This document shows positions 21,970-45,969 of a DNA stretch of 64,000 bases, in pieces; within the stretch, counting starts at the first letter, position 1, and the number at the start of each line of letters is the position of its first letter. The stretch is from Saccharothrix sp. NRRL B-16314. GTDB taxonomy: Bacteria > Actinomycetota > Actinomycetes > Mycobacteriales > Pseudonocardiaceae. The notes below the pieces were generated by a model that made no database searches, was not told where the DNA came from, and saw nothing but the letters and a program-made list of their open reading frames with translations. Both the position numbers and the translations under genes were made by a program. Where the stretch lies: contig NZ_JNXC01000014.1 in the NCBI RefSeq assembly GCF_000716595.1, positions 1 through 64,000 on the forward strand, in the 5' to 3' direction.

Positions 21970-22006
21970 CCGGCCGGTTGAGCGCGTGGGGGGCTCAGCC
22001 GGCCGG
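21970..22006. terminator. Bidirectional hairpin between convergent genes
   Basis: CCGGCCGGTTGAGC (21970-21983) pairs with GCTCAGCCGGCCGG (21993-22006), 14 bp with one wobble and a 9-base loop. It begins 10 bp after the peptidoglycan-binding gene stop and its right arm overlaps the last codons of the convergent FAD gene. Confidence 0.65.
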
Positions 22007-24190
22007 TACCGCCGCCTTGTCGGGGGACGGGCTGGTGGCGAGGAATTCCCGCAACCAGGCCAGCACGTCGCGCATCACGTGGTGGTCCTGGTTCGGGCGC
22101 AGCGCGCCCAACTGGAAGAACTGGACGCCTTCGCTGGGCGGGCCGAGGAACGTCAGCCGCCGGTCCACCCGGTCGTCCGGCCCCACCGGGTGGAAGTCCG
22201 GGGTCAGGTCGAGGCCGCCCGGCTCGAAGTGGTCGCCCGTCGCCGACGGGTTGCGCCACTTGTGCACCAACCCGCGTTCGAGCAGGCGCTGGTACAGCGG
22301 GGCCGTGTCGAGTTCGGGGTCGAAGGCGTGCACCTTCGCGTCGACCAGGACGTCCACGTCGCGCTCGGCCCCGGTGACGTGGCCGCGCACCGCGTACCGG
22401 CCGGTGTCCGGGTTGCCGGCGACCGCCGCGCGCGGACCGGCGGACACGTCCACGACGCCGTGCTCGACCAGCGCCAGCACCTTCTCCATGACCTCCAGCG
22501 CCGCGCCGTTGGCCAGCCTGTTGTGGTGGCGCATGTAGACGTCCAGGAACTCGCGGTGCGACGCGGCGGTGAGGCCGCCGAAGTCGACCGCGTGGCCCAG
22601 CACCGGGCGCAGGTCGCGCCACACGCCGTCGGCGGCGGCCTTCGCGGGGTTGGTCAGGTTGTCCTGCGCCGCCCACAGGTGGTCGCGGCGCATGAACCCG
22701 ACCAGCGCGTCGCGGTACCGCTCCGGTGACGCCAGGTCCGCGGCGGGGATCGGTGCGATGGTGTCCGCCCAGGAGAACCTGTTGTCCGCCAACAACAACC
22801 CATGACCCCACGGACGTTCCAGCCCACCGGCGACTCGGGCCACGGCGTTCGTGTCGGCGAGCACCTGTTCCCGGCCGGACTGCCCCAGCACGACGTCCAG
22901 GTACCGGCTGAACGCCGCTTCGAACGACCAGCCGTCGGCCGCTTCGCAAGCCTCGGCGTACGTCGACGCCCCTTGCAGCACGGCGTCGACCAGCGTCACG
23001 GCGGCAGCGACCGCCTCCTCCACCGGTTCGAGCAGGTGCGCGCCGGGATCGGCACCGCCGGACGCACCCGCGAGGAACGCCCTGAAGCGGGCCGACGCCC
23101 GTGCCGCCAGGAACTTCCCGAAGTCCGCGCCGAGCAGCGTCGTGTAGTGCAGGTGCGCCATCTCGAGCAGCACGAGCGGGAACACGTGCCGGGTGAAGTC
23201 GAGTTGCCGTCGTGCGCCGATCCGGCCGACGACACCGGGCGTGGCGACCGAGGTGCGCAGGGCGTCGATCGCCGGCTCGGTGAGGAACACGCCCCGGTGC
23301 TCCAGTTCGGCGAGGTCGCGTTCCTTGGCGTTGTAGGGGCGGGCGAAGGTGAACAGCCCGGCCTCGCTGAACGCCACGACGGACGCGGGCTCCTTGCCGG
23401 ACGGCCGGTACACGAGCCGACCGCCGACCTCCTCGAACGTGCCGCCGCGCCCCTCGGTGAGCCAGAGGATCACGTCGATCGTGGTCAGGCCCATGCCCAT
23501 GCACCCGACGACGCTGCCCGCGGGCGCCACGTCCTCGCCGAGCGTTTCCTCCAGCGGGTACGCGGCGCCGACGAACGTGGCGTCGCGGTCGGCCGCGAAG
23601 TCCACGAGCGGCCGGAGCCTGCGGTTCTTGGCCGGGTCGTTCCACGAGTGCCCGGTCAGGAACAGCACGTGGTCGGCGGTCACCACCCCGGTCTCGCCGA
23701 CGACCTGGAGCTCCGTGCCGCCGTCCACCACGTCGACGACTTCGGTGTCGTGCATGGAGACGCGCACGTGCGGCTGCTCGCGGAGGATGTCGACGTACCA
23801 GCCGAACACCTCGCGCAGCGCCATGCCGTGCACGTACCGCTTCGGCCAGTCCTCTTTGGACACGTCGAACACCGGGTCGCCGGTCTCCCGGAACTTCCGC
23901 CGGCACCACTCGTACAGCGTCGGCCGCAGGTCGGTCGCCAGCAGCGGGCCGGCGTCCGCCACGCTCTCGTCCGCCGCGAACGCGACCTGCCCGACGATGC
24001 GGTTGAGGAAGCTGGTGCGTGGCTGGGCGTCGCTGTGCACGGCGCCCGCGCCGAACTGGCCGCCCTTGTCGAAGATGTCGATCTCCAGGGCGACCCGTCC
24101 CCGGAGGGCGGGCACCGTGGCGGCCAGGCGTTCCATCACGTAGGTGCACGTGGGCCCGGCTCCGATGACGGCAAGTCGCACCGTGCGCAT
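21995..24190 (-). CDS. Large FAD/NAD(P)-binding protein (NAD_binding_9 type)
   Basis: A 731-residue flavoprotein-like enzyme. The N-terminus VRLAVIGAGPTCTYVMERLA carries the GxGxxx dinucleotide fold, followed by DIFDKGGQFGAGAVHSD, family-typical FLNRIVGQVAF and LTGHSWNDPAKNRRL. A second nucleotide-binding strand VVGCMGMGLTTIDVILWLTE is near residue 225-245. The C-terminal 400 residues are helical and characteristic of the long form of this family; the reaction is unknown. It lies 23 bp downstream of the AEP-transaminase-like gene on the same strand, so it belongs to the divergent arm of the phosphonate cluster. An oxidation of the phosphonate or an amine is possible. ATG 24190 is preceded by GGAGTACGG. 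Confidence 0.75.
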   Translation of the reverse strand: MRTVRLAVIGAGPTCTYVMERLAATVPALRGRVALEIDIFDKGGQFGAGAVHSDAQPRTSFLNRIVGQVAFAADESVADAGPLLATDLRPTLYEWCRRKFRETGDPVFDVSKEDWPKRYVHGMALREVFGWYVDILREQPHVRVSMHDTEVVDVVDGGTELQVVGETGVVTADHVLFLTGHSWNDPAKNRRLRPLVDFAADRDATFVGAAYPLEETLGEDVAPAGSVVGCMGMGLTTIDVILWLTEGRGGTFEEVGGRLVYRPSGKEPASVVAFSEAGLFTFARPYNAKERDLAELEHRGVFLTEPAIDALRTSVATPGVVGRIGARRQLDFTRHVFPLVLLEMAHLHYTTLLGADFGKFLAARASARFRAFLAGASGGADPGAHLLEPVEEAVAAAVTLVDAVLQGASTYAEACEAADGWSFEAAFSRYLDVVLGQSGREQVLADTNAVARVAGGLERPWGHGLLLADNRFSWADTIAPIPAADLASPERYRDALVGFMRRDHLWAAQDNLTNPAKAAADGVWRDLRPVLGHAVDFGGLTAASHREFLDVYMRHHNRLANGAALEVMEKVLALVEHGVVDVSAGPRAAVAGNPDTGRYAVRGHVTGAERDVDVLVDAKVHAFDPELDTAPLYQRLLERGLVHKWRNPSATGDHFEPGGLDLTPDFHPVGPDDRVDRRLTFLGPPSEGVQFFQLGALRPNQDHHVMRDVLAWLREFLATSPSPDKAAVPAG

Positions 24191-24213
24191 CAACCCGTAC
24201 TCCTCGGTGGATT

Positions 24214-25368
24214 TCAGTGCTGGGAGGCGGTCGCCCGCAACGCGGCGACGACCTGGTCGAAGGCGTCGAGGAAGCGGCGGACCTGCGCCTCGGACAGGTT
24301 CCCCATCGTGGCGATGCGGCAGACCCGCCCGAGCGGCGGCGGACAGCCGTAGATGACGAAACCGGCTTCCTTGAGCCGGTCGTGCAGGTGGGTGTAGTCG
24401 ATGTCCTCGGGCAACCGGAACACGGTCACCGAGGACGCGCTGTGCTCGGGCGTCAGCAACGGCTCCAAGCCGTGGCGCACCAGGTGTTCCCGCAACAACA
24501 TCGACAGCCCGGCGTAGCGCGCCGACCGCCGGGACACCGTCTCCTCCAGGGACAGGTCCAGCGCACGGTCGAGCGCGTAGAGCGCCTGGACGGCGGGGGT
24601 GAACAGCGGGGCATCGACGTGCTCCTGGGAGGCGTAGTGCCCGTGCAGGTCGAGGTAGAACGTCCGGGGCGGCACGGTGGAGAGCTGCTCCAACAAGGCG
24701 CGGGGCGCGCACGCGAAACTCGCGCCGGGCAGGCCCTCCAGGCACTTGTTGGCGGTGCCGACGCACCAGTCGACGTGGTCCGCGACGACGTCCAGCTCCT
24801 CGGCGCCCAGCGAGCTGATCGCGTCCACGAGCAGTGACCGACCGTGCCGGGCGACCAGCCGGCCCACCTCGGACAACGGGTTGAGCATGCCGGTGCTGGT
24901 CTCGTGGTGGACCATGCCGACGTGGGTGATGCCGGGGTCGGCCGCGAGCGCCGCGTCCACCCGGTCGAGGTCGAACGGCTGCGTCCAGCCGAACTCCAGC
25001 CGCTGCTGCGCGATGCCGTGCACCGCGGCGATCCGGGAGACGCGCTCGGCGTAGTGCCCGTTGTGCAGCACCAGGAGCTTGCCGTCCGCCGGGATGACCG
25101 ACGAGATCACCGCTTCCAGCGCGGCCGTGCCGGAACCGGCGAACAGGACGCTGGTGTGCTCCGCGCCGCCGCCGCAGATCGCGGTGGCCTTCGCCCGCAC
25201 GTTGCGCATCAGGTCGGCGGCCTCGGGCTCCCGGTGGCAGACGTCGGGGTGGCGCAACACCTCGCGGACCCGCTCGTCGACGTTCACCGGTCCGGGGTTG
25301 AGCAGCACCTGACTCGGCGGCGCGGCGGTGCGCGGCGCGGACCGGAGTTCGCCTGACTGCACGGTCAT
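24214..25368 (-). CDS. 2-aminoethylphosphonate transaminase-like PLP enzyme (PhnW family)
   Basis: A 384-residue class V aminotransferase. It shows LLNPGPVNVDERVREVL, the cofactor loop FAGSGTAALEAVISS (76-90), the family signature THVGMVHHETSTGMLNPL, PLP-pairing Asp182 in LLVDAISSLGA and Schiff-base Lys208 in GTANKCLEGLPG. This fits PhnW/AGT-like enzymes acting on phosphonate aldehydes or keto acids. It diverges from the PEP mutase gene. Candidate substrates in this pathway are phosphonopyruvate, 2-hydroxy-3-phosphonopropanal or 3-hydroxy-2-oxopropylphosphonate. No AEP-forming decarboxylase is present, so an AEP role is unlikely. ATG 25368 has GGAGG upstream. Confidence 0.85.
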   Translation of the reverse strand: MTVQSGELRSAPRTAAPPSQVLLNPGPVNVDERVREVLRHPDVCHREPEAADLMRNVRAKATAICGGGAEHTSVLFAGSGTAALEAVISSVIPADGKLLVLHNGHYAERVSRIAAVHGIAQQRLEFGWTQPFDLDRVDAALAADPGITHVGMVHHETSTGMLNPLSEVGRLVARHGRSLLVDAISSLGAEELDVVADHVDWCVGTANKCLEGLPGASFACAPRALLEQLSTVPPRTFYLDLHGHYASQEHVDAPLFTPAVQALYALDRALDLSLEETVSRRSARYAGLSMLLREHLVRHGLEPLLTPEHSASSVTVFRLPEDIDYTHLHDRLKEAGFVIYGCPPPLGRVCRIATMGNLSEAQVRRFLDAFDQVVAALRATASQH

Positions 25369-25656
25369 CGCGTTCCTCCATGCGACGGTGGGCGTTCCGA
25401 ACAACGTGACCGCTATTCACGCGGCCATTCGGCTGCACCCGGACCAGGCCACTCTGCCGGCGGCAGCTTACCGCTCGCCATGCCTATTGGACACCTTACT
25501 AAAGTGCACGCTTAGTCGTTCATCCAAACGTGTCTACGCTGCGGTCCAGCGGGTCTGGGTGATCTGATCCCGCACTACAGTAGCCGGCGAAACCGCGCGC
25601 GGTTCGTCCGCCGAGTCAACGCGGCAAGCCGATTACGAACAGCTGCGAGAAGGACT
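25369..25656. promoter_or_regulatory. Divergent control region of the phosphonate cluster
   Basis: The 288-bp gap between the two arms of the cluster. It contains an inverted repeat ACTAA-N9-TTAGT at 25498-25516 with a GTGCAC core at 25504-25509, in a locally AT-rich stretch, a good candidate operator. A TTGGAC box at 25488-25493 could be a -35 element for the rightward arm, but no convincing -10 follows. No open frame of its own. Confidence 0.4.
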
Positions 25657-26568
25657 ATGACGAGCACTCAGGGATTTGGTGTGGAAACCGCGCGGCCCCG
25701 CCCCGGGGCCCGGTTTCGGTCAATGCTCCGGGATAGCGACAGCCTCGTTTATCTGATGGAAGCCCATGACGGGCTGTCGGCCCGGATCGCCGAGGTCGAG
25801 GGTTTCCAGGCCATCTGGGCGTCCGGGTTGTCGATGTCGACGGCGCTGGGCGTCCGGGACAGCGACGAGGCGTCGTGGTCGCAGTTGCTCGGCGTGGTCG
25901 AGAACATGGTGGAGTCGACCACGGTGCCGATCATCGTGGACGGCGACACGGGGTACGGCAACTTCAACACCGCGCGCCGGTTCGTGGCGAAGGCCGAGCG
26001 GGTCGGGGTGGCCGGCGTGTGCCTGGAGGACAAGGTCTTCCCGAAGATGAACTCGTTCGTCGGCGACTCGCACACCCTGGCCGAGGTGCGCGACTTCACC
26101 GCGAAGATCAAGGCTTGCGCGGACGCGCGGCAGGACCCGGACTTCGTGCTGATCGCCCGGGTCGAGGCGCTGATCGCGGGTCGCGGCATGGAAGAGGCGT
26201 TGCGCCGTGCGACCGCGTACCACGAGGCGGGCGCCGACGCGATCTTCATCCACTCCCGCCGGTCGGACGCCGAGGAGATCCTGCGCTTCAGCGCGGAGTG
26301 GGCGGGCAGGCTGCCGCTGGTGATCGCGCCGACGACGTACGCGAGCACGCCGTCGTCCGAGTTCCACCGGGCCGGCATCTCGGCGGTCATCTGGGCGAAC
26401 CACAGCATGCGTGCCGCGGTCGCCGCGATGCGCCGGGTGTGCCGGGAGATCTTCAACAAGGAGAGCGTGCACGACACCGACAGCGAGCTGGCCTCGCTGG
26501 CCGAGGTGTTCGAGCTGATGGACTACCAGGAGATCGAGGAAACCGAGCGGCGCGTCTACGGCGCCTGA
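25657..26568 (+). CDS. pepM: Phosphoenolpyruvate phosphomutase (PEP mutase)
   Basis: A 303-residue enzyme converting PEP to 3-phosphonopyruvate, the carbon-phosphorus bond-forming step of nearly all phosphonate natural products. It has the isocitrate-lyase/PEP-mutase barrel: IWASGLSMSTALGVRDSDEA, PIIVDGDTGYGN with metal/substrate aspartates 95 and 97, and the diagnostic EDK-X5-NS motif, E124-D125-K126-VFPKM-N132-S133, which separates true PEP mutases from methylisocitrate lyases. FIHSRRSDAEEI and IAPTTYAS further fit. It lacks the fused cytidylyltransferase domain of Fom1. GAGAAGG precedes the ATG. It starts the rightward operon; no phosphonopyruvate decarboxylase gene follows. Confidence 0.95.
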   Translation: MTSTQGFGVETARPRPGARFRSMLRDSDSLVYLMEAHDGLSARIAEVEGFQAIWASGLSMSTALGVRDSDEASWSQLLGVVENMVESTTVPIIVDGDTGYGNFNTARRFVAKAERVGVAGVCLEDKVFPKMNSFVGDSHTLAEVRDFTAKIKACADARQDPDFVLIARVEALIAGRGMEEALRRATAYHEAGADAIFIHSRRSDAEEILRFSAEWAGRLPLVIAPTTYASTPSSEFHRAGISAVIWANHSMRAAVAAMRRVCREIFNKESVHDTDSELASLAEVFELMDYQEIEETERRVYGA

Positions 26569-26587: not shown

Positions 26588-27691
26588 ATGACCGCGTTAC
26601 CGCTCGACCGGCTGCCGAAAGTCCTCGTCCTCGACCCGGTCGCCGACACCGCGTTGCGCACCTTGCGCGAGGGGTTCGACGTCGTGGTGCGAATCCGCCC
26701 GGACCCGGACGCGCTGCTCGCCCTCGCACGCGACGCCGACGTGATCGTGCTGCGCAGTGGTGTGCGGCTGCCGGCCGCGGTGTTCGAGAACGCCCCCGGC
26801 CTGCGCCTGGTGGTGCGCGCGGGCGTCGGCATGGACAACATCGACGTGGCCGCCGCTGCCGCCGCCGGGGTGCGGGTGGTCAACATCCCCGCCGAGTCCG
26901 CGACGGCCGTTGCCGAGTTGGCGTTCGGGCTGATGCTGGCGCTGCTGCGGAACGTCGCGCTGGCGGACCGGCAGGTGCGTGACGGCCGGTGGCGCAAGCA
27001 CGAGCTGGTCGGTGGTGAGCTGGAGGGCCGGGTGCTGGGGGTGGTCGGCCTCGGTGCGATCGGCAGCCGGGTGGCCCGGATCGGGCGCGGGTTCGGCATG
27101 CGGTGCCTGGGTTCCGTCGCGCGGCCGAGTCCGGAGCGCGCCGCCGAACTGGCCGCCGCCGGCGTGCAGCTCACCGATTTGCCGCAGCTGTTGGCGGACA
27201 GCGACGTGGTGTGCCTCGCCGTGCCACTGGACCACCGCACCCGCCACCTGATCGCCACGCCGCAACTGACTGCGATGCGGCGCACTGCGGTGCTGGTCAA
27301 CGTGTCGCGGGGTGACGTGGTCGCGGAGGGTGATCTGCACGCCGCGCTACGGGCCGGGGTGATCGCGGGCGCTGCGACGGACGTGCACGAGGTCGAGGGG
27401 GAGACGAAGCTGGCGGAGTTCGACAACGTGGTGCTGACGCCGCACATCGGCGCGATGACCGCCGAGACGCAGGAGCGGATCGGACGGCGGGTGGTCGCAC
27501 TCATCCACGACGAGTTCGCCCGCCCTGAAGGCCCTGTCCCCAACGAGTCCCGCGCCGATGGCTCGCGCCCTGACGACTCTCGCGCCGATGGCTCCCGCCC
27601 TGACGACGCCCGCCCTGACGACTCGGGCACCGGGGTGTCCGGCTCCGACCATGCCGACGCCCGGCCCGACCCGGCGCCGGTGGGCGCGTGA
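26588..27691 (+). CDS. D-2-hydroxyacid dehydrogenase (PGDH-like), predicted phosphonopyruvate reductase
   Basis: A 367-residue NAD(P)H-dependent enzyme of the phosphoglycerate-dehydrogenase family. Rossmann motif GLGAIGSR (G154, G156, G159), catalytic Arg241 (NVSRGDVV), Glu270 and His286 (LTPHIGAMT). The ACT domain of true SerA is missing. PGDH homologues reduce phosphonopyruvate to phosphonolactate in valinophos/phosphonothrixin-type pathways, and its place next to PEP mutase suggests the same. Odd feature: after residue 310 there is a hydrophilic tail made of in-frame 15-bp repeats (ADGSR, PDDSR, about residues 321-345) absent from the family. It overlaps the next GTG by 4 bp. Confidence 0.88.
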   Translation: MTALPLDRLPKVLVLDPVADTALRTLREGFDVVVRIRPDPDALLALARDADVIVLRSGVRLPAAVFENAPGLRLVVRAGVGMDNIDVAAAAAAGVRVVNIPAESATAVAELAFGLMLALLRNVALADRQVRDGRWRKHELVGGELEGRVLGVVGLGAIGSRVARIGRGFGMRCLGSVARPSPERAAELAAAGVQLTDLPQLLADSDVVCLAVPLDHRTRHLIATPQLTAMRRTAVLVNVSRGDVVAEGDLHAALRAGVIAGAATDVHEVEGETKLAEFDNVVLTPHIGAMTAETQERIGRRVVALIHDEFARPEGPVPNESRADGSRPDDSRADGSRPDDARPDDSGTGVSGSDHADARPDPAPVGA

Positions 27692-28740
27692 CCACCGTGG
27701 CGCGGGGGACCATGAGCGCCGCGGTGCTCACCGGGCCGCGGCACGTCGAGTCCCGCGGCATCCCCGTTCCCGACGTCGAGCCGCGCACCCTGCTGGTCCG
27801 GGTGCTGACCACCGGCGTGTGCGGTTCGGACGTGGCCGCCTACCGCGGCACGCACCCGTACAAGACCGCCCCGATCGTGCTCGGCCATGAGCTGTGCGGG
27901 GTCGTCGAGCGGCTGGGCGACGGGGTGCGCGGCTTCTCGGTGGGCGACCTCGTCTGCGCGGCGGCGTACTCGCCGTGCGAGCGGTGCGCTGCCTGCCGTG
28001 CCGGCGCCGCGAACCTCTGCACCGACCGCCGCAACCTCAGCCACCTCGGGTGGCAGGGCTCGTTCGCCGACTACGTGCTGCTGCACGAGAACATGGCGTT
28101 CCGCCTCGCGGACCACGTGGACCCCTTGGCGGGCGCGATGGTCGAGCCGCTGAGCATCGGCCTCCACGCGGTGCGGTTGGCGCGGCCCGCCGGTTCGGTC
28201 GTCGTGCTCGGCTCGGGTTCCATCGGCTTGAGCTGCGCGCTGGCCGTGAAGCGGCGGTGGTCGGCCTGGGTGACGTGCGTCGACCTCGGCCCGCACAAGG
28301 AAGCACCGGCCAGGCTGGCCGGCGCCGACGACTACGTGGACGCGGCGGGGGACGACTTCGCCTCCTGGGTCGCGCTCGGTCCGGCCGACGTGGTCTTCGT
28401 GGCGTCCGGCCACGACGGCGCGCTCGCCCAGGCCGCCGCGATGGTCCGCCGGGGCGGCCAGGTCGTGGTGGTCAGCTACTTCGACGCACCCGTGCTGCTC
28501 GACGCCAACGCGCTGGTCGGCGGCGAGCTGACGCTCGTCGGCTCGGCGCTGTCCACCGCGGCGGACTTCGCCGAGGTGATCGACTGGGTGGAGACCGGCG
28601 CCGTCGACCCGCGACCGCTGGTCACCCACCACTTCGACCTCGCGGACACCGCCGGCGCGCTCGCGCTGCTCGACGGAGCCGGTGGGAACACCGGGAAGGT
28701 CATGATCCACGTTTCGACCAGGGAGGGTGGCGGCCGGTGA
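27688..28740 (+). CDS. Zinc-dependent medium-chain alcohol dehydrogenase
   Basis: A 350-residue sorbitol/threonine-dehydrogenase-like enzyme. Catalytic zinc ligands Cys45 (GVCGSD) and His67-Glu68 (GHE); structural zinc cysteines 97, 100, 103 and 111 in CERCAACRAGAANLC; coenzyme fold VVVLGSGSIGLSCALAVKRR. In this operon the likely job is oxidation of the secondary alcohol of 2,3-dihydroxypropylphosphonate to 3-hydroxy-2-oxopropylphosphonate, as known for phosphonothrixin; reduction of the C1 aldehyde is the alternative. It has overlapping starts and stops on both sides (GTGA), so it is strictly coupled with the PGDH-like and ArgC-like genes. Confidence 0.9.
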   Translation: MTTVARGTMSAAVLTGPRHVESRGIPVPDVEPRTLLVRVLTTGVCGSDVAAYRGTHPYKTAPIVLGHELCGVVERLGDGVRGFSVGDLVCAAAYSPCERCAACRAGAANLCTDRRNLSHLGWQGSFADYVLLHENMAFRLADHVDPLAGAMVEPLSIGLHAVRLARPAGSVVVLGSGSIGLSCALAVKRRWSAWVTCVDLGPHKEAPARLAGADDYVDAAGDDFASWVALGPADVVFVASGHDGALAQAAAMVRRGGQVVVVSYFDAPVLLDANALVGGELTLVGSALSTAADFAEVIDWVETGAVDPRPLVTHHFDLADTAGALALLDGAGGNTGKVMIHVSTREGGGR

Positions 28741-29837
28741 CAGGACAGGTCGACGTCGGTGTCGTCGGGGCGACCGGGTGGACGGGGCGCGAGCTGTGCC
28801 GCCTGCTGCTCGGGCACCCGGCCGTCGGGAGGATCGTGCCCACCGCGCGGGACACCACGAAGGCGTTCCACCACGTGCACCCGAACCTCCAGGGCAGCGG
28901 GCTGGAGTTCGTCGACGTCGGCGAGCTGGTGGCACAAGCCGCTGATCTGGACGTGGTGTTCTTCTGCACGCCCGCCGGCGAGGCGATGGCGCTGGCACCC
29001 GACCTGCTCGCACGGGGCACCCGGGTGGTGGACCTCAGCGCCGACTTCCGGTTCCCCGATCCCAAGTTGTACCAGGAGATCTACGCCGCCGAGCACACCG
29101 CGCCCGACCTGACCGCGCGGGCCGTGCTCGGCGTCACCGAGCTGTTCCGGGAACGCGTGGCCACCGCGCCGCTGGTCGCCAACCCCGGCTGCTACGTGAT
29201 CGCCACCCTCCTGGGCCTGGTGCCGCTGGTCGAGAACGGCCTGCTGACGCCGTCGTCCGCGGTGCACGTCCACGCGGTCAACGGGACGACCGGTGGCGGC
29301 ACCAAGCCGAAGACGGAGCTGATGCACGCCGAGGTGTTCGGCTCCGTGCTGCCGTACAGCCTCGAAGGCCACCGGCACAGCGGCGAGCTGGAGCACTACC
29401 TGGGTGAGCTGGCGGGCGGCGGGATCACCGTCGTGATGAGCACAGCGCACGGGCCGTTCGCCCGCGGCATCCTGGTGCAGGCCGACGTCGTGGTCCCGCC
29501 GGGCGCGAAGGCAGACCTGGACCGCGACGCCCTGCTGTCCCTGTACGTCGACCGGTACGGCGCCGGCCACGACGGCGAGCACTTCGTGCTGGTCAACGAC
29601 GTGGCCAAGCGCGGCGGCCCGAACGCCAAGGAGTACGGCGCCTACCCGAGGGTCGCGAACGTCGTCGGCTCGAACCACTGCCACCTGGGCGTCGACTACG
29701 ACCCGGTGCGCGGTGTCGTCAAGGTCGTCTCGGTGATCGACAACCTGGTCAAGGGCGCGGCGGGCTCGGCGGTGCAGAACATGAACGTGATGCTCGGCCT
29801 GCCGGAGACCGAGGGCCTGCGGATGTACGGCCTGTGA
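28737..29837 (+). CDS. ArgC-like acyl-phosphate reductase (N-acetyl-gamma-glutamyl-phosphate reductase family)
   Basis: A 366-residue NADPH-dependent semialdehyde dehydrogenase. The nucleotide fold is VGVVGATGWTGRELCRLLL; catalytic Cys152 sits in VANPGCYVIATLL; the distal domain has TGGGTKPK, EGHRHSGELEHYLG and a conserved AHGPFARGI. No arginine genes are nearby and it lies between a zinc ADH and a PGK paralogue. The natural reading is reduction of the acyl phosphate of phosphonolactate to 2-hydroxy-3-phosphonopropanal, the chemistry ArgC does on N-acetylglutamyl phosphate. GTG 28737 overlaps the previous stop. Confidence 0.9.
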   Translation: MTGQVDVGVVGATGWTGRELCRLLLGHPAVGRIVPTARDTTKAFHHVHPNLQGSGLEFVDVGELVAQAADLDVVFFCTPAGEAMALAPDLLARGTRVVDLSADFRFPDPKLYQEIYAAEHTAPDLTARAVLGVTELFRERVATAPLVANPGCYVIATLLGLVPLVENGLLTPSSAVHVHAVNGTTGGGTKPKTELMHAEVFGSVLPYSLEGHRHSGELEHYLGELAGGGITVVMSTAHGPFARGILVQADVVVPPGAKADLDRDALLSLYVDRYGAGHDGEHFVLVNDVAKRGGPNAKEYGAYPRVANVVGSNHCHLGVDYDPVRGVVKVVSVIDNLVKGAAGSAVQNMNVMLGLPETEGLRMYGL

Positions 29838-32215: not shown

Positions 32216-33814
32216 TTGACGCTGCGGAGACTCCCGCGAAACGATTCGGCGGTGCTTCAGCAGAAAGCGGTTGTCGACCTGTTGCTGTGGGCTGCCGGGG
32301 GAGACGTCGCGCCGCCTGACCTCCGCGAGTCCGATTGCGAGCAACTCGCGGCGGCGCTGCACAGCCACCGGTTGGACGCCAGGTTCCTGCGCCGGGCCAG
32401 GGTCGACGGCGTCGAGGTGCCGCACGTCCTGGCGCGGCGGCTCACCGAGCGGCTCGCGGGCATCCGCCGCGACGTCGACAAGCGCGCCGCGCTGGCCCGG
32501 ACGCTCTCGGCCCTCGCGAGCCCGGACGACCACCGGCGGGGCTTGATCACCCTCAAGGGGTTCACGCTGCTCGGCCTGACCGGCGGCGAACAGGCGGTGC
32601 GGCACAGCGGTGACCTCGACGTGCTCGTCGGCGACCCGGCCGAGTTCGTCCAGCGGGCGCTGACGCTCGGCTTCACGATCCGGGACCGGATGGACGTCCT
32701 GGACGAGTACGCCCGGCTGGTCCACGACGAGCACGGCATGGTCGAGGTGCACTCGTACTACGCGGTGCCGTCCTGGCGGTCCCGCGCCACCGAGGTCGAC
32801 TGCGACCCGAAGGCGAACCCGGACCGGTGGGTCCACGGCGTGTCCCTGGGCGAGACCCGGCTGCACTACGCCGACATCGTGGACGACCTGGTCCCGGCGC
32901 CCGCCCTCGAAGGGGGCGGGTGGGTCCTGCGACCCGAGGTCGCGGTGCTCGTCCAGGCCGCCCACCTGCACGGCGACTACGTGCGCGCGGTCCTGCCCGA
33001 GCCGATGGGCACCGCCCGGCTGGACGAGATCGCCACCGTGCTCGACTTCTGCGCGTTGCCGGGCTTCGACTTCGGCTACCTGGCCGAGCTCGTGGACCGC
33101 TTCCAGGCGCACGACGTGGTGGCGTTCGCGCGGGCGCTGGCCGTCGACCTGCTCGACCGCGACCCGTTCCCGCCCGGCACGGGCCTCGACCTGCCCGACG
33201 GCCGCTTCTTCCCGGTCGACCTGTGGTGGGACGGGGTCGAGGGGTTGCTCGTGGACCTGGGGTGGAACCCGCTGGAGATCGTCGTGCGGTCCGAGCCGCC
33301 CCTCGCGGTCCTCGAACGGCTGGGCGCGTGCCGGGTGCCCGTGACCGACGTGCCGCGTGAGGTGTCCGCGGCCACCGGCACGTCGAGCGACCTGGACCGG
33401 TACGTGCTGCGGGAGGGGCGGTCCGGCCACTTCGACGTGCGGTGCGCGCCGGCCGCCGACGACCGCGCCCTGTCGCTCACCATCTCCGTTCCCGCCGCGG
33501 CGGACGACCGGATGATGGCCGTGTCGCTCAACTTCGGCGACTACCGCTTCGAGTTCTTCCACCGCAACGCGGAGAACGACCTCCAGTTCGACGACTACTC
33601 GCTGACCCCGGTCGAGGGTCCGCCGGTCGAGCGGAGCGCCCGTCGCGTCGACGGCCGTGACGTGCTGACCGTCCGCATCCCCTGGGTCCGCCTGGGTGAC
33701 ACCCGACCGGCGGACCTGCCGCTGTTGCTCGGGGTGCGCCGGCAGGTGCGCGAGTGGGGCGCGACCGACGGTGTCGCGATCCTGCCGCTCCGCCTGACGT
33801 GGGGCGCGGCGTGA
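32216..33814 (+). CDS. Nucleotidyltransferase-family protein (NTP_transf_5) with extra C-terminal domain
   Basis: A 532-residue protein. The N-terminal 370 residues match uncharacterised nucleotidyltransferases of PF14907 type: ITLKGFTLLGLTGGEQAVRH then SGDLDVLVGDPAEFVQRAL, with the two-aspartate strand of the polymerase-beta fold, and VEVHSYYAVPSWR. The last 160 residues (from about DRYVLREGRSGHFDVRC) are beta-rich, with VSLNFGDYRFEFFHRNAEND, and are not part of the family; they resemble a beta-sandwich. It may attach a nucleotide to a phosphonate or to another acceptor. No PepM-type cytidylyltransferase is present in the cluster. The start is uncertain: TTG 32216 (used) or GTG 32252; neither has a strong ribosome site. 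Confidence 0.7.
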   Translation: MTLRRLPRNDSAVLQQKAVVDLLLWAAGGDVAPPDLRESDCEQLAAALHSHRLDARFLRRARVDGVEVPHVLARRLTERLAGIRRDVDKRAALARTLSALASPDDHRRGLITLKGFTLLGLTGGEQAVRHSGDLDVLVGDPAEFVQRALTLGFTIRDRMDVLDEYARLVHDEHGMVEVHSYYAVPSWRSRATEVDCDPKANPDRWVHGVSLGETRLHYADIVDDLVPAPALEGGGWVLRPEVAVLVQAAHLHGDYVRAVLPEPMGTARLDEIATVLDFCALPGFDFGYLAELVDRFQAHDVVAFARALAVDLLDRDPFPPGTGLDLPDGRFFPVDLWWDGVEGLLVDLGWNPLEIVVRSEPPLAVLERLGACRVPVTDVPREVSAATGTSSDLDRYVLREGRSGHFDVRCAPAADDRALSLTISVPAAADDRMMAVSLNFGDYRFEFFHRNAENDLQFDDYSLTPVEGPPVERSARRVDGRDVLTVRIPWVRLGDTRPADLPLLLGVRRQVREWGATDGVAILPLRLTWGAA

Positions 33815-35007
33815 GGACCACGCGGGGCGGCTTGCCCGTTCCGGTGCGGATCGGCGTGCTGGCGAACGCGACGTTCAGCGGCCTGATCATGGTCGCGCTG
33901 CCGCTGCTGCTCAACGCGCGCGGTGTGGGCAAGGCGCACATCGCCGCGTTCTTCGTGCTCAACGCCCTGACGGCGGCCGTGCTGAACCTCACCGTCGGCC
34001 GGCGGCTGCGCCGGATGCCGTCCAGCCGGGCCATCTCCATCAGCGCAGGCACGTCGGCGGCGGGGCTGGTCCTGCTGGCCGTGACGCCCTGGCCCGCCCT
34101 GGTCTACCCGGCGGGCATGGCGGTGATGGCGATGAGCCTCGTCTACCCGCGGTACGTCGCCATGGCGGACAGCTACTCGGCGCGGTCGGCCGCGCGCACC
34201 ATCAGCGGGATGCGCTCGCTGTACGTGCTGGGCTACGTGGCCGGGCTCGGCGTGTTCGCCGCGGCGACCGAGCTGGAACGCCTGGCCGGTCCGGCGTTCC
34301 GGCCGGTGCACGTCGCGGTCGGGCTCGCGCTGCTGAACGTCCTCGTCGCGTGGCTGCCCCACCGGCCGCCGGCCGTCGAAGAGCCCGGTGCGACGACCTC
34401 CGACGCCGCGAAACCGTTGCCGGGACGGGTGGTCCTGCTGGGTGCCGCCGCGGCCGTGCTGCTGCTGCGCGCGGCGGACAGCCTGCGCGCCGTGTACCTG
34501 CCGCTGTACGCGGTCAACTCCGGTGTCGGCGAATCGGCCGTGTCCGGGCTCTTCGCCGTCACCGCGATCGTGGAGTTCGCGGTGCTGGTGCCGTTGAGCG
34601 GGCTGAGCGACCGCTTCGGCAGCCGTCGCGTCCTGGTGGCGGTGTGCCTGACCGGCGCGCTGTCGTTCGTGGCCGTGGTCGTCGCGTCCGGGTACCCGGT
34701 CCTGATCGGCTCGCAGGTGGTCTACGCGGTGTTCGCCGCCGGATTCCAGAGCATCGGGATGGTGGTGCTCGGCGAGGCGCTGCGGTCCGGCATGGGCGGC
34801 GGCGCGGCGCTGTTCACCGCGTTGGTGCAGGTCGGTTCCACCGTCGGCGTCCTCGCGCCGCTGCTCGTGCCGGGCTACAGCTCGTCCGTGTTCCTGATCG
34901 CGGTAGCGTTCTGCGTCGTAGCAGCGGGGCTGCTGCTCGTGGACCGGCTGCGACCGACCCGCCGCCCGACCGGTGTGCCCGTGGGCGCCGTCGGCAGCAC
35001 CACGTGA
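33811..35007 (+). CDS. Major facilitator superfamily transporter of the phosphonate cluster
   Basis: A 398-residue membrane protein with about 12 helices. It has MFS cues such as PLSGLSDRFGSRRVLVAVCL in the second half (motif A) and a central hydrophilic loop around residues 180-205. GTG 33811 overlaps the nucleotidyltransferase stop. Placement in the operon suggests product export or self-protection; fosmidomycin and other phosphonates need dedicated transport because of their charge. Short intramembrane loops fit a drug/proton antiporter. Confidence 0.88.
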   Translation: MRTTRGGLPVPVRIGVLANATFSGLIMVALPLLLNARGVGKAHIAAFFVLNALTAAVLNLTVGRRLRRMPSSRAISISAGTSAAGLVLLAVTPWPALVYPAGMAVMAMSLVYPRYVAMADSYSARSAARTISGMRSLYVLGYVAGLGVFAAATELERLAGPAFRPVHVAVGLALLNVLVAWLPHRPPAVEEPGATTSDAAKPLPGRVVLLGAAAAVLLLRAADSLRAVYLPLYAVNSGVGESAVSGLFAVTAIVEFAVLVPLSGLSDRFGSRRVLVAVCLTGALSFVAVVVASGYPVLIGSQVVYAVFAAGFQSIGMVVLGEALRSGMGGGAALFTALVQVGSTVGVLAPLLVPGYSSSVFLIAVAFCVVAAGLLLVDRLRPTRRPTGVPVGAVGSTT

Positions 35008-35033
35008 CCGACCACCGAGGGAGACGTATCCCG

Positions 35034-35690
35034 ATGACGGATGACCTCCGGGCGCTGTTGCGCGGACTCGCCGTGTTCGCCGGCGACCTGCCGCCGTTCG
35101 ACACCGAGGCCACGCCGGACGAGCCCGTGCCGCTGTTCACCGAGTGGCTGCGCACGGCGATCGAGCGCGACGTGCCGGAGCCGCACGTCATGACACTGTC
35201 CACGGTGGACTCCGAGGGCCGGCCGACGTCCCGCGCGTTGATCCTGAAGAACGTCGACGAGTCGGGCTGGCAGTTCGCGTCCACTTCGGCCGGTCGCAAG
35301 GGCCGGGAGCTGGGCGCGACGCCGTTCGCGGCGCTGAACTTCTATTGGCAGCCGTTGGGGCGGCAGGTGCGGGTGCGGGGTGCGGTGCGGTCGTTGGGGC
35401 CGGAGGCGAGCGCCCGCGACTTCCTCGCCCGGTCGCCCGGGTCGCGCGTCGAGACGTTGGCGGGCAGGCAGAGCGAGCCGTTGACCGACCCGGCGGAGCT
35501 GACGGAGGCCGTGGCGCGGGCCGAGCAGCGGGTGGCCGCCGAACCGGACCTCGTGTCGCCGACGTGGACGCTCTACGCCGTGCTGCCCGACGAGGTCGAG
35601 TTCTGGCAGGCGGACAAGGGGCGGCGGCACGTGCGGCTGCGGTACGAGCGCGGTGACGACGGGTGGACCAAGGGCCGGCTGTGGCCGTGA
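35034..35690 (+). CDS. Pyridoxamine 5'-phosphate oxidase family protein
   Basis: A 218-residue flavin split-barrel protein with full PdxH-like architecture: PHVMTLSTVDSEGRPTSRAL then ILKNVDESGWQFASTSAGRK for the FMN barrel, ALNFYWQPLGRQVRVRGAV for the second flavin-contact strand, and the C-terminal EVEFWQADKGRRHVRLRYER resembling the PNPOx dimerisation region that binds the substrate phosphate. It may supply PLP to the cluster aminotransferase or act like PhzG on a pathway intermediate. Intergenic space is 26 bp with GAGGGAG. ATG 35034 is chosen. Confidence 0.85.
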   Translation: MTDDLRALLRGLAVFAGDLPPFDTEATPDEPVPLFTEWLRTAIERDVPEPHVMTLSTVDSEGRPTSRALILKNVDESGWQFASTSAGRKGRELGATPFAALNFYWQPLGRQVRVRGAVRSLGPEASARDFLARSPGSRVETLAGRQSEPLTDPAELTEAVARAEQRVAAEPDLVSPTWTLYAVLPDEVEFWQADKGRRHVRLRYERGDDGWTKGRLWP

Positions 35691-35706
35691 CGACAGGAGG
35701 ACGGTC

Positions 35707-36345
35707 ATGCTGATCGCGGTCGTGGGCAGTGACGGGGCCGGCAAGTCGACGGTCACGTCGAGGGCCGCCGAGCGGCTGGTGGGGCTGGGGCACCCGGTGC
35801 GGCAGATCGACCGGTGGCACATCGTCGACAACCCGGCGTACCCGGTGACGCGGTTCCTGAGCCCGCCGGTGTCCGAGCTCAGGCTGCGCGTGGCCGAGAT
35901 GCCCAACCCGCCGCGCTTCCTGTTCCTGATGTGGTCGATCGGCATGGCGCTGCTGGGCCGGGAGGACGCCGTGCCGCCGCCCGAGGGCGAGGTCCAGCTG
36001 CTCGACGGGTACTGGATGAAGCACGCGGCGAGCGAGATCGTCTACGGGTTGGACCAGGGCTGGGTGGAATCGGTGGTGGCCGGCCTGCCCCGGCCGGACC
36101 TGGTCGTGTACCTGCGGTTGGAGCCGGAGGACGCCTGGCGGCGCAAGGTGGACGACGTGGTGCCGTACGAGTGCGGGATGGACGCGTCGTGCTCGAAGGA
36201 GAGCTTCCTGGGGCACCAGGGACGGATCTTGTCCCTGCTGGACGAGTGGTCCGCCCGCCACGGCTGGACCGAAGTCGACGCCACCGCGCCCTTGGACGCC
36301 GTGATCGAACGCGTAACCAAAGAAGTAACCGCCGCGCGGGGTTAG
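35707..36345 (+). CDS. Thymidylate-kinase-like P-loop kinase
   Basis: A 212-residue protein starting MLIAVVGSDGAGKSTVTSRA (Walker A GSDGAGKST, residues 7-15). The body has YWMKHAASEIVYGLDQGWVE, PDLVVYLRLEPEDAWRRKVD (the strand-plus-lid region of dTMP kinases), and a Cys-containing VPYECGMDASCSKESFLGHQ instead of a typical lid. dTMP-kinase-like genes occur in natural-product clusters where they phosphorylate unusual substrates. Here it could phosphorylate the phosphonate or activate a nucleotide for the upstream transferase. AGGAGG precedes the ATG. It is the last gene of the rightward run before the repeat region. Confidence 0.8.
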   Translation: MLIAVVGSDGAGKSTVTSRAAERLVGLGHPVRQIDRWHIVDNPAYPVTRFLSPPVSELRLRVAEMPNPPRFLFLMWSIGMALLGREDAVPPPEGEVQLLDGYWMKHAASEIVYGLDQGWVESVVAGLPRPDLVVYLRLEPEDAWRRKVDDVVPYECGMDASCSKESFLGHQGRILSLLDEWSARHGWTEVDATAPLDAVIERVTKEVTAARG

Positions 36346-36359
36346 CCGGCTGGCGTGTC

Positions 36360-36790: not shown

Positions 36791-36797
36791 GGTGGGC

Positions 36798-37616
36798 TCA
36801 GGTTGCGGGGGTTGGCCGGCGGGCCGCGATTCGGGTCGAGCGGATGCCGGCGGGCCACTCGGCGCGCGGTCGGAGCAGGAACCTGATGTCGGCCGACGTG
36901 TGGTCACCGCGCAGCACGAAGCACTCCGCGCCGCGCCGGGCATGCTCCAGCAACGCCGTCAGCTTGCCCGCCATCGCACCACTGGTGTCGTGATCGGCGG
37001 CCGGCCAGATGCGCCGGAACGCCTCGTCCGCCGACTCGGGGTCGATCTCCGGCAGCACCTCACTCCCACCCGGACCATCGGCCAGCACGCCGGGAACGTC
37101 GGTCAGCACCGCCACCCGCACCCGCCCCGGATGCGAGCGCACGACCACCGCCGGCACGTGATCACTGCCGAAGACGTGCAGCGCGCCGTCGTCCCCGAGC
37201 ACGCAATCCCCCGACAGCACCGGCAGCATCCCGTGCCCCAGCAACCGGTCCAGGACACCGGGGTAGACCTCGGGACCGTCCTCGCCGAGCGTGCACACCG
37301 CCGCGACCTGCACCGGCAGACAAGGCACACCGTGCCGGCGCAACGCCTCCACCCAAGCCCACTTCACCCGGAACGTCGCCCTGGTCAACGGCAGCGACGC
37401 GAGCGGGTCCGCCGCGTCCAGGTGCCGCACGGCCCCGTGGCCGATCGCACCGCCGCCGACCACGAGCACGACCCTCTGCGGCGCGGCGCGGTGCAGGTCG
37501 GCGACGAGCTTGGCGTAACCGGCGAGCACTTCCTCGTCCAGGTGGTCGTGCCTGGCCTTGTCGGAAACCAGGCTGCCGCCGACCTTGAGCACCAGGACGT
37601 CCACGTCGCGGTTCAC
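36798..37616 (-). CDS. FomA-like phosphonate kinase (amino acid kinase superfamily)
   Basis: A 272-residue kinase closest in pattern to FomA, the fosfomycin kinase, and to archaeal isopentenyl phosphate kinases: LVLKVGGSLVSDK (Gly loop, Lys), VVGGGAIGHGAVR, RATFRVKWAWVEALR, VLSGDCVLGD, FGSDHVPAVVV, VAVLTDVPGVLADGPGG and DTSGAMAGKLTALLEHARRG then AECFVLRG. In FomA-type enzymes this fold phosphorylates the phosphonate oxygen, giving self-resistance. So the product, or an intermediate, may be stored as a phosphono-phosphate. A biosynthetic role is also possible. GTG 37616 overlaps the HAD gene stop (GTGA). Confidence 0.85.
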   Translation of the reverse strand: MNRDVDVLVLKVGGSLVSDKARHDHLDEEVLAGYAKLVADLHRAAPQRVVLVVGGGAIGHGAVRHLDAADPLASLPLTRATFRVKWAWVEALRRHGVPCLPVQVAAVCTLGEDGPEVYPGVLDRLLGHGMLPVLSGDCVLGDDGALHVFGSDHVPAVVVRSHPGRVRVAVLTDVPGVLADGPGGSEVLPEIDPESADEAFRRIWPAADHDTSGAMAGKLTALLEHARRGAECFVLRGDHTSADIRFLLRPRAEWPAGIRSTRIAARRPTPAT

Positions 37617-38296
37617 GTCATCCCGACCGGCACGGTCGCCCACGAGCCCGCCAGCGTGATGCCGGACCGACCGGCCTCCGCGCGGACACTGCCCAGGTCG
37701 TCCACCCACGCGTCCAGCGCCGGCGACGACACCGCCATCCCGACGCCGACTCCGACGCAGCGCATCCCGGCGGCGGTGGCCGCGCCGAGCCCGACCGGCG
37801 CGTCCTCGAACACCGCGCAACGCTCCGGCGGCACACCCAGCTTCTCCGCCGCGAGGAGGTAGCCCTCCGGGTCCGGCTTGCCGTGCGCCACGTCCGCCGC
37901 GGTGATCACGAGGGACGGTTCGGGCAGGCCGACGGCCGCCAGCCGGGCACGGGCGATCGGTGGTGTGCCGGAGGTGACGATCGCCCAACTGCTCGGCGGC
38001 AGCGTCCCGAGCAGGTCGGCCGCTCCGGTGACGGCGGTGAGCGTGTCCATCACCTCGAAGTCCAGTTCGGCGATGCGGGCGACCTCAGTGTCCACGTCCA
38101 GCCGGGGTGCCACCAATCGCACGAGGTCCGCGTCCCGGCGACCGTGGGCGAGGGCCACCACCCGGTCGCCGTCGAGTCCGCGCTCGGTGGCCCAGCGCCG
38201 CATGCATTCCTCGATGGCCGCCACCGAATTGACCAGAACCCCGTCGAGATCGAAAAGGAGCGCGTCGAGCCCGGAAATCGTCCAGTTGCGCAGCAC
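37613..38296 (-). CDS. HAD-family sugar-phosphatase-like hydrolase
   Basis: A 227-residue HAD hydrolase. Motif I DALLFDLDGVLVNSV (Asp nucleophile pair near 13-15), motif II AIVTSGTPP, motif III/IV HGKPDPEGYLLAAEKLGV then CAVFEDAPVGLGAATAAGMR. This is the GPP/beta-phosphoglucomutase-like subgroup that dephosphorylates small sugar or polyol phosphates. Coupled with the FomA-like kinase gene, it could reverse the protective phosphorylation, a kinase/phosphatase pair for intracellular masking and release, or act on a glycerol-phosphate-like phosphonate. GTG 38296 follows a GGGGGGA ribosome site. Confidence 0.85.
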   Translation of the reverse strand: MLRNWTISGLDALLFDLDGVLVNSVAAIEECMRRWATERGLDGDRVVALAHGRRDADLVRLVAPRLDVDTEVARIAELDFEVMDTLTAVTGAADLLGTLPPSSWAIVTSGTPPIARARLAAVGLPEPSLVITAADVAHGKPDPEGYLLAAEKLGVPPERCAVFEDAPVGLGAATAAGMRCVGVGVGMAVSSPALDAWVDDLGSVRAEAGRSGITLAGSWATVPVGMT

Positions 38297-38475
38297 CGTG
38301 TTCCCCCCCTGGCTGGACTGCGGTGACCGGCCCACCCTAGGCCGGCGGATAACGGTGCGATGGCGTCGGACGCGGGAATTGGACGTTTTGCTAAGTGTTC
38401 TCGACAGTACGCGTCGGCGCACATATACATGTTTCCGCAATTGTGTTCCGGCGACGACGTCAGGAGTTCCGTCCG

Positions 38476-39429
38476 GTGACCGCAGGCCCTGGGGATCCCG
38501 TGTTCGTCATTCCGCACTACGCCCGGTCCGAGGAGTCGTGGACCGCGTTGCGGTGGACGGTCGACAGCCTCCTCGCGCAGGACGACCCGGCGTGGCGGGC
38601 GGTGATCGTGGACGACGCCTCACCCCGGCCCGACACCCGTCCGCGGCTGGACGCCGTGCGCACGTTGGCCCCCGACCGGATCGACGTGGTGCTCCGCGAC
38701 ACCAACCAGGGACCTGGCACGTGCCGCAACGCGGGCGTGGGCTGGGCCGCCGAGCAGGGCGCGCCTTTCGTGCTGTTCCTGGACGCCGACGACATCGCCC
38801 ACCCACAACGCCTGTCCCGCACGCGGGAGTTGTTCGGCCGGCGGCCCGAGGTCGACTTCGTCTACTCGGGATTCACCGTGATCGACGAGCGGGGTGACGC
38901 GGTGGCCGAGGAGCACATCACCCCGTCGATCCGGGAAATCCTCGACTCACACCGGAAAGGCCCCGTCGAAGGGCCCGACGCGTGGATCGCGATCGGCACC
39001 GAACTCGGCTACACCACCCTGACCTCCACCGTGTCGGTCCGCACCGACCTCGCGCTGCGCTTCCCGTTCCCCGGCACGTACGTCGCCGAGGACGACCACG
39101 CGTGGCTCCGCATGTCGGCCGGTGGATCGGGCTTCGCGTTCCTGCCGGACACGCACACCGGCTACCGGGTGCCCACCGGGGTCGAGGGTTCGGCGACCCG
39201 GCACGCCATCGGCAGCGGGTTCTACTGGGCCTCGGCGCAGGTCACCTCCGACGGGTTCGCCCGTGCGCTGTCCCTCGCGCTGGCACGCGGCACGGTGGAG
39301 GAGTCGGAGGCCGAGCGACTCCGGGCGCGCTTCTACGCCCGGCTCGCGGAAACCATGGCAGGGGAGGGTTTCACGGACATCGCCGACATCCTCCACGCGC
39401 TGGGCCTGGCCGAACCGGCCGACGGGTGA
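38476..39429 (+). CDS. GT2-family glycosyltransferase
   Basis: A 317-residue GT-A fold enzyme: VFVIPHYARSEESWTALRWT, nucleotide strand RAVIVDDASPRPDTR, the substrate helix NQGPGTCRNAGVGWAAEQGA, and the metal-binding DXD in FVLFLDADDIAHPQR. Acidic YVAEDDHAWLRMSAGGSG is the ED-type catalytic-base motif. No transmembrane segment. It could glycosylate the phosphonate or a carrier. It is divergent from the HAD gene across a 180-bp gap containing AT-rich sequence (38390-38440). GTG 38476 is chosen since CAGGAG lies about 10 bp upstream; an upstream ATG (38395) lies in the promoter gap. Confidence 0.85.
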   Translation: MTAGPGDPVFVIPHYARSEESWTALRWTVDSLLAQDDPAWRAVIVDDASPRPDTRPRLDAVRTLAPDRIDVVLRDTNQGPGTCRNAGVGWAAEQGAPFVLFLDADDIAHPQRLSRTRELFGRRPEVDFVYSGFTVIDERGDAVAEEHITPSIREILDSHRKGPVEGPDAWIAIGTELGYTTLTSTVSVRTDLALRFPFPGTYVAEDDHAWLRMSAGGSGFAFLPDTHTGYRVPTGVEGSATRHAIGSGFYWASAQVTSDGFARALSLALARGTVEESEAERLRARFYARLAETMAGEGFTDIADILHALGLAEPADG

Positions 39430-45968: not shown

Positions 45969-45969
45969 C

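Follow-up and report, generated by a model that had tools for sequence, protein, structure and literature searches.

Organization of the locus

The window analysed here is the whole 64,000-nucleotide stretch of DNA from Saccharothrix sp. NRRL B-16314 (contig NZ_JNXC01000014.1; G000:C14:1-64000), taken from an assembly of 8.93 Mb in 273 contigs, and the system in question is a phosphonate biosynthesis cluster around a gene for phosphoenolpyruvate (PEP) mutase, pepM. Open reading frames (ORFs), together with Pfam and curated profile searches, give 16 genes between 21,995 and 40,179 of the window (Table 1), where a minus-strand pair encoding a flavin adenine dinucleotide (FAD) enzyme and a PhnW-like transaminase is divergent from a plus-strand run in the order pepM, 2-hydroxyacid dehydrogenase, Zn-dependent alcohol dehydrogenase (Zn-ADH), ArgC-like reductase, phosphoglycerate kinase (PGK)-like kinase, Fe-dependent alcohol dehydrogenase (Fe-ADH), NTP_transf_5 nucleotidyltransferase, major facilitator superfamily (MFS) protein, PNPOx-like protein and dTMP-kinase-like protein. 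The cluster probably makes an undescribed oxime-type phosphonate, and its defining tail gene, as judged from sequence, is the one for the FAD enzyme, a PcxL/HpxL-like protein encoded next to the transaminase.

The five genes that follow pepM, all on the plus strand, nearly abut or overlap and are referred to below as the block. A GC-rich tandem repeat with a period of about 52 or 105 (about 36346-36756) lies between the dTMP-kinase-like and FomA-like genes, and beyond it come the FomA-like kinase (-), a haloacid dehalogenase (HAD) phosphatase (-), a family 2 glycosyltransferase (GT2, +) and a LuxR-type regulator (-). ORFs were chosen by a crude heuristic, some missed genes being placed by hand afterwards, and the Pfam scan at the locus covered the ORFs of 21.5-43.5 kb. 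Large ORFs including 21375-24149 (-) and 35814-37862 (+), the latter with no Pfam match, were discarded as shadow frames on codon-position GC.

An earlier sequence-only reading of the window had placed a PEP mutase gene in synteny with the five block genes and had listed the transaminase, nucleotidyltransferase, GT2, FomA-like kinase and HAD phosphatase; all of these are present as ORFs where it put them. It had also reported that phosphonopyruvate decarboxylase (Ppd), thiamine pyrophosphate (TPP)-dependent transferase and ATP-grasp genes are missing, and none was found among the scanned ORFs. The FAD enzyme, MFS, PNPOx-like, dTMP-kinase-like and LuxR-type genes had gone unnamed.

Table 1. Genes of the phosphonate cluster in the window and the matches on which their assignments rest.
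Feature	Position	Strand	Basis
FAD/NAD(P)-binding enzyme, 731 aa, putative PcxL/HpxL-like N-oxidase	21995..24190	-	PF13454 E 2.6e-20
PhnW/AepZ-like class V aminotransferase	24214..25365	-	TIGR03301 348.4 bits, slightly under cut-off 360.8
PEP mutase (PepM)	25657..26568	+	TIGR02320 370.8 bits, cut-off 319.55; motif EDKVFPKMNS
2-hydroxyacid dehydrogenase, proposed phosphonopyruvate reductase	26588..27691	+	PF02826 + PF00389
Zn-ADH, proposed 2,3-dihydroxypropylphosphonate (DHPPA) 2-dehydrogenase	27688..28740	+	PF08240 + PF00107
ArgC-like acyl-phosphate reductase, proposed phosphonolactaldehyde former	28737..29837	+	TIGR01850 316.4 bits, cut-off 233.6
PGK-like kinase, proposed phosphonolactate kinase	29834..31054	+	PF00162 E 6.4e-45
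Fe-ADH, proposed phosphonolactaldehyde reductase	31041..32162	+	PF00465 E 9.2e-51
NTP_transf_5 nucleotidyltransferase, LnuA-like, CBM9-like C-terminal domain	32216..33814	+	profile match; predicted model
MFS transporter, likely exporter	33838..35007	+	PF07690; 68% to A. caeruleus
PNPOx-like (PdxH/PhzG-like) flavin mononucleotide protein	35034..35690	+	PF01243 + PF10590
dTMP-kinase-like P-loop kinase	35707..36345	+	weak thymidylate-kinase matches
FomA-like amino-acid-kinase-fold kinase	36798..37616	-	NF000338 241.4 bits, cut-off 550
HAD-family phosphatase	37613..38296	-	PF00702 E 1.2e-22
GT2 (start could be 38395)	38476..39429	+	PF00535 E 6.7e-19; 69% to A. caeruleus
LuxR-type regulator, probable cluster border	39505..40179	-	PF00196; 48% to gene adjoining GT2 in A. 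caeruleus

A probable DHPPA-type front end

PepM carries the EDK-X5-NS motif and gives one strong match only in its own genome. Beside it stand the hydroxyacid dehydrogenase, PGK-like, ArgC-like and alcohol dehydrogenase genes of the DHPPA route. The hydroxyacid dehydrogenase has 50-64% identity to eleven other block copies and the Zn-ADH 49-68% to ten, the next best Zn-ADH of the same genome reaching 33%; the NPGCY motif is kept in 12 of 12 ArgC-like block copies, and the Fe-ADH was found in every one of 12 compared blocks. The PGK-like kinase aligns to the solved PGK 1vpe (128 bits), and HQG, NTR, KAHR and TGGGSA are invariant across the 11 copies compared. With these genes beside pepM, their profile matches and their conserved order, the DHPPA-type early route put forward in the sequence-only reading is supported by sequence, and the front end of the cluster is very probably of this type. 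A 2-hydroxyacid dehydrogenase that makes phosphonolactate is described as a known means of driving PepM (PMC12871164).

The sequence-only reading expected a likely new product from a cluster with a carboxyl-reduction module. The module as such is not new, but two known modules appear to be joined here in a new combination, which makes a new product plausible for another reason, the pairing with an N-oxidase candidate. Carboxyl reduction of this kind reportedly belongs to valinophos and phosphonothrixin chemistry; in the valinophos (vlp) system of Streptomyces durhamensis, phosphonopyruvate reduction and a kinase plus ArgC-like route are said to lead to DHPPA, which the window would have in common with it. 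In that system, VlpF is described as an ATP-grasp enzyme that esterifies DHPPA with valine (PMC12723261), whereas the scanned ORFs of the window locus include no such ligase.

In the family of Kitasatospora cheerisanensis, the PGK-like gene was found at 1e-50 in 5 of 394 genomes, and its loci, unlike the window, gave no match to the transaminase or the FAD enzyme. Four of these loci (G333, G325, G330, G364) have the five genes arranged as in the window block, from hydroxyacid dehydrogenase through Zn-ADH, ArgC and PGK to Fe-ADH. The scan for TPP genes gave a transketolase C-terminal-type and an acetolactate-synthase-type protein in G325 and a transketolase N-terminal-type protein in G333; G330 and G364, nearly identical to G325 (block 94-97%, PepM 99-100%), were judged by their likeness to it. 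The phosphonothrixin pathway, in an abstract of 2023, is said to use a ketotransferase and to oxidise DHPPA to 3-hydroxy-2-oxopropylphosphonate. The TPP genes of G325 and G333 fit this ketotransferase, and the four loci are taken to be phosphonothrixin (ftx)-like. The window locus differs from them in having neither a transketolase-type nor an acetolactate-synthase-type gene among the scanned ORFs, the rest of the genome not having been searched.

In all four ftx-like blocks and all seven blocks of set A (defined below), the Zn-ADH gene is flanked by those of the hydroxyacid dehydrogenase and the ArgC-like enzyme, and the simpler block of the fifth locus, in G1010, has no Zn-ADH match. This kept place in the ftx-like blocks and the absence from one simpler block suggest that the route probably passes beyond DHPPA, with the Zn-ADH presumably oxidising DHPPA to the 2-ketone. 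In G1010:C69 (about 14252-22256; L149, L150), the DHPPA-type block adjoins radical-SAM/SPASM and methyltransferase genes without an ATP-grasp match, and the locus is possibly another DHPPA-type pathway.

An N-oxidase candidate paired with a transaminase

The FAD enzyme aligns in two stretches to the solved L-aspartate N-hydroxylase 8cp2 (E 3.2e-39), and its identities are 69% to the relative in A. caeruleus (Actinoalloteichus caeruleus), 50-62% to ten others and 44-45% to a more distant group of four; the G327 protein stands at 52%. PcxL has been described as an oxime-forming N-oxygenase that yields 2-hydroxyiminoethylphosphonate, with 58% identity to an NRRL WC-3744 protein and 17-22% to seven FzmM-type enzymes in Table 1 of the same source (PMC10404684). 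The accession of PcxL there is WP_051704824.1, and the NRRL WC-3744 entry, WP_030990682.1, is taken to be HpxL. At 1e-100, relatives of the FAD enzyme occur at 17 loci, in 9 of 390 genomes of the window's family (its own included) and 8 of 70 of the genus of K. cheerisanensis, and pepM lies in the fetched stretch at 14 of the 17, the exceptions being G580, G315 and G301. A PEP mutase is fused to a relative of the FAD enzyme in nine (P0024, P0025, P0030, P0031, P0032, P0040, P0041, P0042 and P0052) of 120 listed proteins out of 257 found; the two named records are metagenome-assembled genomes of Solirubrobacterales. These fusions cluster together in an N-oxidase tree of 74 rows, made of 15 of 16 locus proteins (G580 omitted as incomplete) and 59 hand-picked from 134 database proteins. 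A function of the FAD enzyme in phosphonate metabolism is well supported, and by analogy it may form an oxime.

The transaminase has the motif TANKCLEG, whose lysine is presumably the pyridoxal phosphate lysine. In each of the seven loci of set A it adjoins the FAD enzyme, and this pairing makes the predicted product N-oxidised, not merely aminated. Of the aminated, glycosylated or nucleotidylated product foreseen by the sequence-only reading, the amination is supported by the transaminase and the glycosylation becomes peripheral, while the predicted N-oxidation had been overlooked.

Both proteins have relatives in clusters of the phosphonocystoximate (pcx) and hydroxynitrilaphos (hpx) type, which use Ppd and have no DHPPA block. 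The comparator G327, with a protein record under the name Kitasatospora and taken here to be K. setae, has relatives of the transaminase (59%), FAD enzyme (52%) and FomA-like kinase (43%), together with TauD, AMP-binding and MDMPI genes. K. setae is described as likely tied to hydroxynitrilaphos and K. atroaurantiaca to phosphonocystoximate (PMC12723261). A search of the literature gave no description of a cluster that combines a DHPPA block with an N-oxidase, most subscription papers lying outside that search.

The nearest relative of the tail with a two-carbon front end is a phosphonate locus of K. cheerisanensis (L046, 858-20601), which also has a sulfatase-like gene. Relatives of the FAD enzyme (60%), NTP_transf_5 (44%), dTMP-kinase-like (64%), FomA-like (57%), HAD (57%) and PNPOx-like (58%) proteins are found there, and a Ppd and a B12-radical-SAM gene replace the DHPPA block.

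Conservation of the eight-gene core

Best-placed relatives of 15 of the 16 genes, at 48-81% identity, lie in one stretch of A. caeruleus, where the sixteenth, PNPOx, has a relative of only 38%, at the far side. The PGK-like protein was matched at 1e-60 in 4 of 298 genomes of the window's order (its own included), all four loci carrying the transaminase and the FAD enzyme, and at 1e-45 in a class sample only in the window's own genome (1 of 394). Seven of the nine family genomes with the FAD enzyme share an eight-gene core of pepM, the block, the transaminase and the FAD enzyme, and these clusters make up set A: the window, G219 (A. caeruleus), G200, G150 (same genus as the window genome), G678, G701 and G537. 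In the eighth genome, G373, the match falls on the 4.7-kb contig that also gave L001 (A. spitiensis), a fragment of a cluster like that of A. caeruleus (L002). Portions of the genes for the FAD enzyme, the transaminase, PepM, the hydroxyacid dehydrogenase and the Zn-ADH are present on it. The ninth, G580, has Ppd, a transaminase and an incomplete FAD enzyme, with no PepM found within 40 kb. Among 80 PepM loci kept from 112 relatives, ArgC- and PGK-like matches occur only at L002; the other set A loci, with a different PepM, were found via the PGK and FAD-enzyme searches. The pepM stretch of G537 has an in-frame stop, and the PGK-like gene of A. caeruleus appears as two pieces with no single long ORF spanning them.

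The PepM proteins of the window, G219 and G200 are alike at 62-80% and have 37-40% identity to those of the other four set A loci. The PepM proteins of these four, in turn, share 64-77% identity with their counterparts in the ftx-like loci and G327. From these identities, PepM seems to have been swapped in one lineage (window, G219, G200) with the remainder of the cluster retained.

Tail genes and surroundings

The FomA-like and dTMP-kinase-like genes are present in four of the seven set A loci (window, G219, G678, G537). The FomA-like kinase gives 235 bits to the solved FomA 3d40 and aligns to the fosfomycin kinase over residues 6-265 with the GGGAxGHGA and sGAM..KL stretches kept, yet it scores far under the curated cut-off. 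The dTMP-kinase-like protein is 60-75% identical to four relatives from phosphonate loci and its predicted model matches dTMP kinases, while the model of the nucleotidyltransferase shows a CBM9-like domain; the structure matches of these two models speak for folds only, not for a substrate. Besides the window, NTP_transf_5 occurs in G219 and, as a distant relative, in G678; for G537 the corresponding position lay outside the scan. A PNPOx-like gene is found in the fetched stretch of all seven loci, in two subfamilies: those of the window, G701 and K. cheerisanensis are 56-59% alike and 35-43% identical to the rest. Against pdxH the window protein scores 160.3 bits (cut-off 180), and against PhzG it scores 170 (cut-off 270). 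Relatives of the GT2 and LuxR genes occur in G219 only, and those of HAD in G219 and K. cheerisanensis, and glycosylation is therefore read from the sequences as peripheral to the pathway.

Elsewhere in the window, a SARP-type regulator with NB-ARC and TPR domains is followed by a radical SAM protein (1232-6333). Aldehyde dehydrogenase, acyl-CoA-dehydrogenase-like, polyketide-cyclase-like and MMPL genes at 41837-51073 are possibly a separate cluster; the first two of these have no relative in the 40 kb that were read at the cluster of A. caeruleus.

Proposed pathway and alternatives

The steps proposed here are drawn from homology and gene order. PepM would convert PEP to phosphonopyruvate, which the 2-hydroxyacid dehydrogenase would reduce to phosphonolactate, pulling the unfavourable PepM reaction. 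The PGK-like kinase would then form the acyl phosphate, the ArgC-like enzyme phosphonolactaldehyde and the Fe-ADH DHPPA, whose oxidation at C2 by the Zn-ADH would give 3-hydroxy-2-oxopropylphosphonate. The PhnW-like transaminase would turn this ketone into 2-amino-3-hydroxypropylphosphonate, and N-oxidation by the FAD enzyme would yield 3-hydroxy-2-(hydroxyimino)propylphosphonate. A masked form of the phosphonate may arise inside the cell through the two kinases and the nucleotidyltransferase; its export may fall to the MFS protein and its unmasking to the HAD phosphatase, and the GT2 may attach a sugar.

These parts are not equally firm. That the product is an N-oxidised three-carbon amine is the favoured reading of the genes, held with fair confidence. 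The coupling of the DHPPA block to a phosphonocystoximate-type pair for amination and N-oxidation, as a route from DHPPA to a C2 oxime, is suggested tentatively, and the placing of the oxime at C2 (a ketoxime) is equally tentative; the lean to C2 comes from the keeping of both alcohol dehydrogenases in all seven clusters. A masking role of the kinases is conceivable from their relatives but somewhat doubtful. It is a speculative proposal that the product is the first phosphonate ketoxime, free or conjugated to a sugar or nucleotide, which would mimic dihydroxyacetone phosphate and its enediolate against triose-phosphate enzymes and be made masked, as a phosphorylated (FomA-like, dTMP-kinase-like) or nucleotidylated (LnuA-like) form, to be unmasked on export.

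Several observations weigh against the ketoxime route. The known substrate of PcxL is a two-carbon primary amine, which favours an aldehyde and hence an aldoxime, and the likeness to PcxL and HpxL is drawn from family relatives. MDMPI (mycothiol-type) domains in three set A loci recall thiohydroximate formation, which needs an aldoxime. The Zn-ADH argument stands on one Zn-ADH-free block and on the phosphonothrixin chemistry outlined above. The set A N-oxidases are not one clade, three changes being needed (as few in 2 of 500 shuffles), and the coupling of DHPPA block and N-oxidase may have arisen more than once. Comparison of residues did not convincingly split DHPPA-type from Ppd-type transaminases or N-oxidases: two transaminase columns separate them (reached by 4 of 792 groupings, the real one included; the G299 transaminase is incomplete at the edge of the fetched stretch), as does one N-oxidase column (51 of 330), and such columns were set aside as substrate evidence. 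The tails also vary: G200 carries three ATP-grasp genes, G150 has GNAT and condensation genes, and G678 has AMP-binding and PALP genes, so that the products of set A may differ. Finally, a Ppd-like gene lies on another contig of the same genome (G000:C30:44795-45832; L153, L159).

Among the set A clusters, that of Actinopolyspora mzabensis (G200; L090/L091) has three ATP-grasp genes and a MobA-like transferase, and that of Actinosynnema pretiosum (G150; L092/L093) has GNAT and condensation-domain genes. From this gene content, the two clusters likely make different final products.

The alternative that fares best, though it is considered unlikely, is that the transaminase takes phosphonolactaldehyde before the Fe-ADH does, giving 3-amino-2-hydroxypropylphosphonate and then its aldoxime. 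From there the route could lead on to a thiohydroximate or a nitrile, on the pattern of phosphonocystoximate or hydroxynitrilaphos, with the Fe-ADH and Zn-ADH in side steps. This would agree with PcxL, described as turning 2-aminoethylphosphonate into an aldoxime (PMC10404684), and with the 58-59% identity of the window transaminase to the enzymes of G302 and G327, both Ppd-type loci. The MDMPI gene, going by these same two loci, presumably belongs to pcx/hpx clusters, and the domain is found in two of five Ppd-type loci and in three of seven in set A (G219, G678, G537). However, the branch needs neither alcohol dehydrogenase, yet each of the seven set A blocks retains the two, and the window cluster itself has no MDMPI match, the 49% relative in its genome lying away from it on contig 2.

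A DHPPA derivative that is aminated, nucleotidylated or glycosylated but not N-oxidised, with the FAD enzyme unneeded or otherwise employed, is improbable. The transaminase, the nucleotidyltransferase with its CBM9-like domain and the GT2 are all at hand for it, but the GT2 is found in only two of the seven set A loci, and the FAD enzyme stands beside the transaminase in every one, near pepM at most loci and, in the fused proteins, joined to PepM itself.

A two-carbon product would be made if the Ppd-like protein of contig 30 acted in trans, the transaminase then giving 2-aminoethylphosphonate and the FAD enzyme a phosphonocystoximate-type aldoxime, with the DHPPA block serving a second product. 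The sequence-only reading had named a Ppd gene elsewhere, coexpressed and needed for the product, as what would speak against its own proposal, and the first half of this applies: a Ppd-like gene is present, at 324.4 bits over a curated cut-off of 312.5, in a genome whose single strong PepM match leaves it no other PepM. Among its neighbours are a gene for a protein with a methyltransferase-like start, as judged by eye, and one that is 37% identical to the dTMP-kinase-like gene. Apart from that relative, the tested cluster genes are not beside it: the 20 kb read around it gave no PepM, transaminase or N-oxidase match, and the locus is possibly a separate small pathway. Ppd matches at 1e-40 are absent genome-wide from all six other set A genomes, so that the core needs no Ppd elsewhere, and two same-genus genomes outside set A have one (G290 above the cut-off; 17 genomes searched). 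The two-carbon product is rated very improbable.

Implications

The N-oxidised three-carbon product, if correctly predicted, would connect three-carbon DHPPA synthesis with aminophosphonate N-oxidation, each described as a pathway of its own, through intermediates that can be checked one by one. The position of the Zn-ADH offers a reading rule, taken from few loci, by which its gene between those of the hydroxyacid dehydrogenase and the ArgC-like enzyme would mark clusters that pass DHPPA to the 2-ketone. If true, the proposal would define a group of three-carbon N-oxidised phosphonates across seven actinomycete loci, together with a hypothesis of self-protection.

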